Below, one piece after another: positions 1-12,488 of a DNA stretch of 33,780 bases. The notes beneath the pieces were generated by a model that had not been told where the DNA came from, searched no databases, and was given only the letters and a program-made list of their open reading frames with translations. The stretch is from Verrucomicrobiia bacterium (GTDB taxonomy: Bacteria; Verrucomicrobiota; Verrucomicrobiia; Limisphaerales; UBA11358): positions 1 to 33,780 of the forward strand of contig JANWKE010000067.1 in NCBI GenBank assembly GCA_025451535.1. Reading direction: 5' to 3'. The position numbers and the translations under genes are program-made. How positions within the stretch are numbered: the stretch's first letter is position 1; every line of letters starts with the position of its first letter.

Positions 1-112
1 CTCCCTCTCCGCCGCGAAGCGGGGGAGAGGGCTGGGGTGAGGTGGCGTGTTGGATCGGTTGCCCCTCGCCCCGACCCTCTCCCCGCTCCTGTGTCGCGAG
101 GCGAGGGAGAAG
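1..112. repeat. Palindromic dispersed repeat inside uvrB (GGTGAGG hairpin family)
   Basis: Two GC-rich units face each other. The first pairs CCCTCTCC with GGGGAGAGGG (about bases 2-29) and is followed by the tag CTGGGGTGAGG. The second starts with the inverse tag CCTCGCCCCGACC, and its CCTCTCCC arm can pair with GAGGGAGA near base 110. The same hairpin-plus-TGAGG tag occurs at 11733-11766 and 12213-12364. The element is read in the uvrB frame without a stop. Confidence 0.75.
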
Positions 113-1324
113 AAAACTCTGCCCCGACCATTCGAGTTCACGTTTGGCCGGAGTGGCACTGACATAAATCGTCTGACCCTGCATTCCTTGAAATTCCTCG
201 AACTTCAGCGGACGATTATCGAGCGCGCTCGGCAGGCGGAAACCGTATTCGACCAACACTGTCTTTCGCGAGCGGTCGCCTTCGAACATCGCACCGATTT
301 GCGGAACGGTGGCGTGCGATTCGTCAATCACCAGCAGGTAATCGTTCGGAAAGAAATCAATGACGGTCGCCGGCCGCGAACCGGGCGGGCGACCGGCGAT
401 GTGGCGCGAATAATTTTCGATGCCGGAACAGACCCCCATTTCCTCCATCATTTCCAGGTCAAATTCCGTGCGTTGCTTGATACGCTGGGCTTCGAGTAAT
501 TTGCCATTTTTCTCGAACCAGACGATGCGCTCGCGCAATTCCTCACGGATGGCCAGGGCGGCGCGTTTCATCTTGTCAGCGGTGGTCACGAACTGTTTAC
601 CCGGGAAAATGGTCACGGCGTTGAGCGTTTCGGTTTTGCCTCCGGTTAACGGCTCAAAACGCGTCAACCGTTCGATTTGCTCGCCGAAAAATTCAACGCG
701 CAGGCCGTCTTCGCGACCGGCAGGGCGCACTTCCACCGTATCGCCGCGCACACGGAAATGGCCGCGCTCAAAGGCGATGTCGTTGCGGTCGTATTGCAAA
801 TCCACGAGGCGCGTGAGGAGTTGCTCGCGCGAAATGTCGGTGCCGACCCGGATGGGAATGACCATCGCTTCGTAATCCTCCTTGCTGCCGATGCCGTAGA
901 TGCACGACACGCTGGCGATCACCACCACGTCGCGCCGTGAAAACAATGAACTCATTGTGGAAAGCCGCATCCGCTCGATTTCCTCGTTTCGGCTGGAATC
1001 CTTCTCGATGAACGTGTCGGTGCGCGGGATGTAGGCTTCCGGCTGGTAATAATCGAAGTAGCTGACGAAGTATTCGACGGCGTTGTGGGGGAAAAAGCCC
1101 TTGAACTCGGCGTAAAGCTGCGCCGCCAGCGTCTTGTTATGCGAAATGACGAGCGTGGGCTTATCCACGTTCTTGATGACATTGGCAATGGCGAACGTCT
1201 TGCCGGAACCGGTCACGCCGAGCAGCGTCTGGTGTTTCGCGCCGGACAAAACGGCCTCCGTCAGCTTCGCAATGGCTTGCGGCTGGTCGCCGGCGGGTTT
1301 GAAGGGCGCGACAAGATCAAACAT
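1..1324 (-). CDS. uvrB: Excinuclease ABC subunit B (partial, 3' end outside window) with in-frame repeat
   Basis: UvrB is the damage-verifying helicase-like subunit of nucleotide excision repair; it is loaded by UvrA and recruits UvrC. The frame opens at an ATG at 1324 and stays open to base 1 (441 codons). Residues 36-43 are the Walker A motif GVTGSGKT. The damage-binding hairpin region [12 protein letters not shown] lies near residue 95, followed by a DESH box and the helicase motif SATP at 389-392. Up to SGQ near residue 402 the protein is a clear UvrB. After that the family's expected VVEQ..RPTGL segment is absent. Instead the frame reads through a palindromic repeat ([22 protein letters not shown]) to the window edge. 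No good ribosome binding site precedes the ATG. Identification is secure; whether UvrB sequence resumes beyond the repeat cannot be seen here. Confidence 0.95.
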
Positions 1325-4657: not shown

Positions 4658-4737
4658 GTAGCCGCCGACGTGAGGAGGCGGAATTGGACTGAAATTCCCC
4701 CCTTTCATCCGCCTCGTTACCTCGGCGGCTACTTTTT
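4658..4737. repeat. GTAG-headed paired inverted repeat, likely also a terminator
   Basis: The left arm begins GTAGCCGCCGACGTGAGG (4658-) and the right arm ends CCTCGGCGGCTAC (to 4732); about 21 of 25 bases pair. The hairpin is followed directly by TTTTT, so it can stop transcription of the esterase gene. The GTAG/CTAC ends recall REPIN elements recognised by RAYT transposases. A related element lies at 9551-9619. Confidence 0.6.
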
Positions 4738-5829: not shown

Positions 5830-5836
5830 GCGAACC

Positions 5837-5977
5837 GTAGGACAGGCGTCGCGCCTGTCTCAAACTTGAAAAACTCCCGCTTGAGCGGTCCTGGCAACCG
5901 TCGCTCATACTCTACTGACTGCTGTGCCGATTTACCGAAAGATGGAGACAGGCGCGACGCCTGTCCCACGTGCCTAC
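5837..5977. repeat. REPIN-like element with GTAG/CTAC ends
   Basis: The left arm contains GACAGGCGTCGCGCCTGTC and the right arm (5945-5967) GACAGGCGCGACGCCTGTC; the arms are inverted copies with 22 of 23 bases matching. Each arm is itself a hairpin. GTAG precedes the left arm (5837-5840) and CTAC follows the right arm (5974-5977). The roughly 80-base centre shows no gene. It abuts the truncated toxin remnant. Confidence 0.7.
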
Positions 5978-6186: not shown

Positions 6187-6260
6187 GGAGTGCGGACAGC
6201 TTTGTCCGCGTGTCCCAATCCAACCTGCAAGCATTTCGCGGACAAGGCTGTCCGTGCTCC
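6187..6260. repeat. Paired inverted repeat (GTGCGGACAGC family)
   Basis: The left arm, GGAGTGCGGACAGC then TTTGTCCGCG (6187-6210), and the right arm, CGCGGACAAGGC then TGTCCGTGCTCC (6237-6260), are inverted copies with about 22 of 24 bases matching. Each arm is internally palindromic (GCGGACA/TGTCCGC). It separates the two copies of the toxin C-terminal sequence. Confidence 0.65.
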
Positions 6261-9365: not shown

Positions 9366-9392
9366 GTGACGACACTCGAAGACCGCTTGCGA

Positions 9393-9520
9393 CTTGGAGT
9401 GCGGTGGCTGTGACACCGCTTTCGAACGCCGCCAGCGCTGCGAAAACACCTTTTGTCCTTCACTTGTCCGTGTGAACCGACGAAAGCGGCGTCGCACCCC
9501 GTTTGCCGCCGCACTCCAAG
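9393..9520. repeat. Paired inverted repeat (CTTGGAGTGCGG family)
   Basis: The left arm CTTGGAGTGCGGTGGC then CACCGCTTTCG (9393-9424) mirrors the right arm CGAAAGCGGCGTCGC then GCCGCCGCACTCCAAG (9481-9520). The right arm carries a few extra bases. The 56-base centre has no gene. It fills most of the 330-base gap between rpsA and folA. Confidence 0.65.
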
Positions 9521-9550
9521 ACGCTCGCGCGAAATCGATTTCCAATCGAT

Positions 9551-11814: not shown

Positions 11815-12207
11815 ATGGCCGATATCACCCGCGCCCGCGCACTTCGCAAAAAGGAAACCTGGGCGGAAAAGCTCATGTGGCGTTGGCTGCGTGATCGGCG
11901 TTTCAATACTTATAAATTCCGCCGCCAGCATCCGAAAGGAATTTACTATCTCGATTTCTTTTGCGAAGAAGCAAGCCTCGCCGTCGAACTCGACGGTTCA
12001 GGCCACGGCCATCCCGACCGGCAAAGTCACGACGCCGAACGTGAGAAATTCCTGACGTCACAAGGAATCAAGGTTTTACGGTTTTGGAATTCTCATTTAC
12101 GGCGAAACGCCCAAAGCATCCGGGACACGATTTTTGAAGAGTTGCAGGGGCGTGCGCCGCATCCGTTGCCGGATTACACAAGGCCGATATCGGGAAACGT
12201 TGGTTGA
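11815..12207 (+). CDS. DUF559 family endonuclease-like protein
   Basis: The 130-residue protein matches the DUF559 family, which has the fold of very-short-patch repair and other PD-(D/E)XK nucleases. Key elements are the helix TWAEKLMWRWLR (Glu18), YYLDFFC (Asp47), AVELDGSGH (Glu58, Asp60, His64) and IKVLRFWN. The arrangement of an acid, then a D-containing strand, then ExD, suits a metal-dependent nuclease. Residues 1-97 look complete; the tail after about 112 (GRAPHPLPDYTRP) is Pro-rich and runs toward the adjacent repeat. The gene has hairpin repeats of one family on both sides. Its substrate is unknown; self-mobility or repeat processing is my inference. Confidence 0.85.
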   Translation: MADITRARALRKKETWAEKLMWRWLRDRRFNTYKFRRQHPKGIYYLDFFCEEASLAVELDGSGHGHPDRQSHDAEREKFLTSQGIKVLRFWNSHLRRNAQSIRDTIFEELQGRAPHPLPDYTRPISGNVG

Positions 12208-12212
12208 ACATC

Positions 12213-12364
12213 CGCCCTCATCCCGGCCTTCTCCCCCGGGAGAAGGTGAACAATTCGCCGCCTCTTCGGAATGAGTAAGCCCGGATCTGGTGGACAGCCT
12301 CCGCAAACCCAAAAACAGCCAATAGCTGTTCCTTCTCCCGGGGGAGAAGGTCAGGTTGAGGGCG
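12213..12364. repeat. Paired hairpin element downstream of the DUF559 gene
   Basis: The left unit is CGCCCTCATCCCGG plus hairpin CCTTCTCCC/GGGAGAAGG (12213-12246). The right unit is hairpin CCTTCTCCC/GGGAGAAGG plus TCAGGTTGAGGGCG (12331-12364). They are inverted copies with tags facing outward, about 84 bases apart. The structure is that of a REPIN but with a TGAGGGCG tag in place of GTAG. Confidence 0.8.
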
Positions 12365-12488
12365 AGCGTAAAACCTAAATGGAAAGTTCCAGTCATCTTG
12401 ACGATTGGAGTCATCGGCCACGCCGCGTTTCTTTCGAGTGGTGAAATTTGCTTGCCCAACGATGTGGTTACACGGCCTATTTGTTGTC

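Follow-up and report, generated by a model that had tools for sequence, protein, structure and literature searches.

The uvrB gene of the window and its continuation on a second contig

The window, the whole stretch of DNA analysed here, comprises 33,780 bases and is the entire contig C67 of a 4.4-Mb draft genome (G000) assembled in 188 contigs, so that its base 1 is an end of the assembly. A uvrB gene starts at position 1324 on the minus strand and its frame remains open as far as base 1 (Table 1). The preliminary description of this DNA had read the product as a normal UvrB up to about residue 402, and profile searches bear this out: NCBIfam model NF003673 matches residues 2–403 and TIGR00631 residues 2–402, with bit scores below the full-length cut-offs, as expected for half a protein, and the Pfam UvrB_inter domain is matched in the same part. 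The frame then enters a hairpin repeat, as had also been described, and runs open through this GC-rich inverted repeat to the window edge. The Pfam UvrB domain has no match in the window and one in the genome, on contig C93, where the C-terminal half scores over the cut-off. Family models thus match on both sides of the insert.

Table 1. Positions of the uvrB gene, its insert and other repeats in the window
Feature	Position	Strand	Basis or remark
uvrB, N-terminal part, first 401 residues up to ELEWSG	122..1324	-	NF003673, TIGR00631, Pfam UvrB_inter
In-frame palindromic repeat insert within uvrB, window part	1..121	-	open frame, genome matches, fold z
Inverted repeat arm	22..42	.	86% complementary to 64–84
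Inverted repeat arm	64..84	.	pairs with 22–42
GTAG...CTAC REP dimer, outside uvrB	4658..4732	.	inverted repeat; family of the G248 and G181 uvrB inserts
GTAGGACAGGCGTC-type REP dimer, outside uvrB	5836..5970	.	inverted repeat; family of the G117, G035 and G037 uvrB inserts
CCTTCTCCC-type inverted repeat	12202..12375	.	weakly like the insert type of the window's uvrB

Positions 1–35 of C93 are identical to the reverse complement of window positions 1–35, and the same frame continues, reading VEVGRRPG, then VVELVVRPTGLIDP and the remainder of UvrB. The sequence VVELVVRPTGL resumes in frame beyond base 1, an outcome that the preliminary description had foreseen for a true insertion. The joined open reading frame encodes 719 amino acids, of which 48, residues 402–449, follow residue 401 as an extra segment. 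The insert is 144 nt long, its remaining 23 bases occupying positions 36–58 of C93, and its predicted fold lies 5.8 SD below dinucleotide shuffles (z = −5.76). The join is inferred from a 35-base overlap inside the repeat, and the true insert could be longer.

With so short an overlap, and with copies of the repeat elsewhere in the genome, the junction might be an artefact of assembly or binning in which two contigs that do not belong together, each terminating in the same repeat, have been brought together. The two halves are, however, complementary, with no UvrB residues missing or doubled. Furthermore, in two relatives (G022 and G024) an insert at this residue lies wholly on one contig, and the join is supported by a contiguous uvrB in a third (G291), whose insert at the same place is 81% identical to the joined one. 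The complementary halves in frame and the contiguous G291 insert led us to set the chimaera aside as very improbable.

The extra 48 residues lie beside the helicase core and the gene is split across two contigs, observations that would fit a pseudogene decaying in the window genome. The genome contains one UvrB N half and one C half, the other N-side match being weak, at 23%. Comparison with the two nearest relatives (dS 0.55–0.97) gives dN/dS values of 0.035 on the N side of the insert and 0.042 on the C side for G022, and of 0.045 and 0.025, respectively, for G024. The gene is therefore as constrained behind the insert as before it, with strong purifying selection on both sides, and it does not look broken. 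Decay is contradicted by these values of 0.025–0.045 and by the continuing frame; we have set it aside and regard it as the least probable of the explanations considered. The earlier proposal that UvrB tolerates the extra loop fits these data; the alternative offered with it, a broken gene, does not. The closest named UvrB (80%) is that of an uncultured Verrucomicrobia subdivision 3 bacterium, whose UvrB core is identical to that of a genome of the same genus (G029).

The repeat in the window genome and in other genes

The insert has the inverted-pair structure of REP/REPIN (BIME) elements and is dispersed in many copies, with 20 matches in its own genome, counting itself and C93; a GTAG...CTAC end pair is not present in it. 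The same type of repeat had been reported elsewhere in the window. This holds to the extent that the CCTTCTCCC-type inverted repeat is weakly similar, with local scores of 35, 34 and 31 against the inserts of G013, G291 and the window, respectively, where the shuffled maximum is 28. It does not extend to a true copy: the genome search finds no second copy of the uvrB insert in C67, and the strict CCTCTCCCC...GGGGAGAGG pattern is not found in the window. Two other repeats in Table 1 are more clearly related to uvrB inserts of relatives. The GTAG...CTAC dimer gives local scores of 62 and 48 against the G248 and G181 inserts (shuffled maximum 26), and the GTAGGACAGGCGTC-type dimer 54, 41 and 36 against those of G117, G035 and G037 (shuffled maximum 27). 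From this sharing of families, it seems that one pool of repeats circulates in the group. The inverted repeats at 6187–6260 and 9384–9529 were matched by no uvrB insert above shuffles.

The window's repeat is also read in frame inside conserved proteins in at least 4 of its 17 other places in the genome. The proteins hit, whose open reading frames were picked by eye, are an alcohol dehydrogenase, an HI0933-like flavoprotein, a 6-phosphogluconolactonase-family protein and a DpnI-family protein. These four lie on contigs C75, C5, C177 and C34 (loci L006, L019, L020 and L013). UvrA was examined in 30 genomes of the genus, 28 of which gave a match. It has two loops of variable length (L226–L255), and in five of the 28 genomes (G183 and G021; G001, G022 and G031) these were read by eye as containing repeat-like residues. 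Among the genes surveyed across genomes, UvrB and UvrA, UvrB is the stronger but not the sole case, so that it is special in part.

Genes for Y1_Tnp transposases are found in 28 of the 30 genus genomes, with seven matches in the window genome; no inverted or flanking repeats were found around the one Y1_Tnp gene of that genome that was examined, and this search linked no transposase to the window's repeat. The two genomes that lack Y1_Tnp, G011 and G077, have uvrB inserts with no hairpin signal (z of 0.05 and −0.22), and the matches listed for them include no other copy of the insert. Since two genomes are few, and since G018 has Y1_Tnp with a single-copy insert and G077, which lacks Y1_Tnp, has many matches to the repeat type of the window, the association of Y1_Tnp with hairpin inserts amounts to a hint.

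Inserts at the same UvrB site in relatives

The site lies between the short helix after the SATP motif and the strand beginning VVELVVRPTGL. In a set of 59 genomes, made up of the window genome plus 58 relatives, the search breaks many UvrB genes at this same residue, near 400, inside a single open frame. Of 293 genomes of the order covered by a wider survey, 268 gave a UvrB match. By our count, made from the split pattern and the loci read, some 53 of these 268 have an insert at the site; of the single-match genomes only a minority were read, so that short inserts may be missed.

We read 92 loci and excluded three (L152, L153 and L163) that gave no parse across the site; L153 (G010) and L163 (G212) end at or in it. 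An in-frame insert is present in 54 of the 89 parsed loci, in 15 families (f1, f3, f9, f16, f19, f26, f27, f29, f31, f47, f49, f51, f53, f58 and f62), and 35 loci have none, proportions that are not a population rate because the loci fetched were picked to include split genes. The inserts range from 18 to 79 amino acids, every sequence is different, and local similarity places them in 30 groups, 20 of them single. Their being all in frame is partly built in, since the parse requires an open frame; none of the 92 loci showed a frame broken at the site. On a tree of the UvrB core, the distribution of inserts needs 11 changes by a quick method, with at least five forced by starred branches.

About half of the inserts have a marked hairpin character. 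A fold z of −3 or below against dinucleotide shuffles was obtained for 26 of the 54 inserts, spread over eight families, and for none of 53 controls of equal length taken from the same genes; at 2 SD, the numbers are 29 of 54 and 2 of 53. GTAG...CTAC ends, as in REP dimers, are present in eight inserts, and 25 have no strong hairpin (z above −2), so that not all inserts at the uvrB site are repeats. At least 18 of the 26 inserts tested have further copies in their own genome among the matches listed. For the other eight (G022, G016, G291, G018, G011, G077, G005 and G111), the matches listed include no copy outside uvrB in the insert's own interval. The full lists give the insert itself as the sole match in its own genome for G018 and in its own interval for G016; G011 has one match in all, and the copies listed for G022 and G016 match a sister insert of the same family.

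The content of the site changes between close relatives. The window genome, G022 and G024 group together with core nucleotide identities of 82–89%, and their inserts align no better than shuffles; the inserts of G030 and G031 likewise differ where the cores are 93/87% identical. G030 and G208 have a common insert (97%). Conversely, the inserts of G024 (family f1) and G218 (f62) are 87% identical on cores of 78–80% identity, and the window genome and G291, though of distant lineages, have like inserts. Such likeness across distant lineages could reflect transfer of the segment rather than fresh insertion.

The edges of the inserts are partly common, R[QEA]SA...PG, a pattern suggestive of an old linker with a replaced middle, and plain linkers with no repeat character occupy the site in families f16, f19, f49 and f58. 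These features would also suit a native UvrB loop with a function of its own that resembles a repeat merely in composition. Such a loop is difficult to reconcile with outright replacement between sisters, with other copies in the genome and with the 35 of 89 loci that have no insert, and no conserved residues or fold have been seen so far across the inserts. We consider this explanation highly unlikely.

Named UvrB proteins show that length at this point can vary. Long inserts that do not look like repeats to the eye are found at the same point in UvrBs of Akkermansia and Chthoniobacteraceae. Among named UvrBs, 64 of 80 were parsed, of which 62 are without and two (L057 and L073) with a long insert at the site; a third named UvrB with one is L134. 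The long inserts of these three share the residues VGN..Y.P and look native. A model of the Akkermansia UvrB (37 sequences, mean pLDDT 82.6) superimposes on the solved UvrB structure 1t5l with Z = 49.1 and an rmsd of 3.1 over 591 residues. In this model, the insert is a disordered loop, with pLDDT below 50 at residues 411–435, between well-ordered flanks, helix 394–399 before it and strand 452–455 after it. Judged by this predicted structure, the loop would tolerate additional length.

A tolerated or a targeted site, and its relation to known repeats

Overall, we consider it probable, at roughly three chances in four, that a dispersed, REP/REPIN-like palindromic repeat dimer has inserted in frame into UvrB, at a loop where additional residues are tolerated. 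The insert would be translated and retained, forming a disordered loop on the protein surface. Y1 (RAYT-like) transposases would move such repeats, and arrivals that were out of frame or carried a stop would be purged, leaving only readable ones to be seen. Many lineages probably already had an older linker at the site, with RQSA...PG-like edges; a new repeat could take the place of its middle or extend it at little cost, and the content of the site would then turn over faster than species diverge.

Active targeting is a different possibility, in which the transposase, or recombination of repeat with repeat, prefers the DNA of the site or an old repeat there, making it a true integration hotspot. 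Similar inserts occupy the site in members of different families (G024, f1; G218, f62; G082, f47), and also in the window genome and G291, which is in keeping with such a preference, as is the figure of 53 in 268 matching genomes. Other genes are hit as well, however, including the loops of UvrA, and the Akkermansia-type inserts at the site, with no repeat character to the eye, point to tolerance. We therefore regard targeting as doubtful. It is similarly unlikely that UvrB is a dedicated landing site in the order, with unrelated repeat families steered to one loop and swapped between species, and with the resulting hypervariable segment, encoded by repeats, either tuning UvrB or benefiting the repeats through their position in the repair machinery.

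Several known systems come close to the present case. Rickettsia palindromic elements are in-frame palindromes inside essential genes, and the window's uvrB, read across both contigs, likewise has an in-frame palindrome inside a conserved gene; the comparison with these elements made in the preliminary description is apt. The phylum is another one, and where the present repeats are tagged, the tag is GTAG, in contrast to the CGTC that PMC3733652 gives for the elements of R. conorii. For the inserts of several relatives, the GTAG-tagged REP dimers described there are the closer parallel. According to that paper, REPs occur inside genes, many of them for DNA synthesis and repair; the examples include uvrB in R. 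conorii and uvrA in the verrucomicrobium O. terrae. The intragenic GTAG- and CGTC-tagged REPs correspond to tens of residues in the reading frame, and many of them lie in genes of nucleotide excision and recombination. About the same site is hit there only in recB of two Xanthomonas species, other genes of that category being hit at different sites. The likeness to the present case lies in palindromic repeats or dimers in frame in conserved repair genes, whereas here a single UvrB site is occupied in 15 families by changing repeat families.

REPINs and BIMEs, which RAYT transposases move, share with the inserts the pairing of short hairpins in inverted orientation, the GTAG...CTAC ends of 8 of 54 inserts and the Y1_Tnp genes of 28 of 30 genus genomes. 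The window's insert differs in having no GTAG...CTAC ends and in being intragenic, REPs being mostly extragenic (PMC3733652). A literature search, with most subscription journals outside its scope, found no report of one UvrB site refilled by changing repeat families. In-frame REPs in repair genes are already known (PMC3733652); the present case is of the same kind but concerns one site in many species with changing repeat families.

With 54 different inserts at one position and insert-free relatives as controls, the site makes a replicated natural experiment out of a scattered observation, that of REPs in repair genes. It becomes possible to measure how selfish hairpins turn into protein sequence, at what rate they are replaced, and whether they are tolerated in repair genes or guided to them. 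The repeats may also explain breaks in the assembly of uvrB in this group: the window, the contig with the C half in G010 and a second uvrB of G212 each stop at or within it. The last of these, a partial gene (L163, contig C296), stops at the contig end exactly at the site (…ELDWAR). A 792-residue UvrB frame in G134 (L193, contig C356) contains an in-frame internal duplication of about 195 residues, genuine or an artefact of assembly, in which the SATP motif occurs twice.
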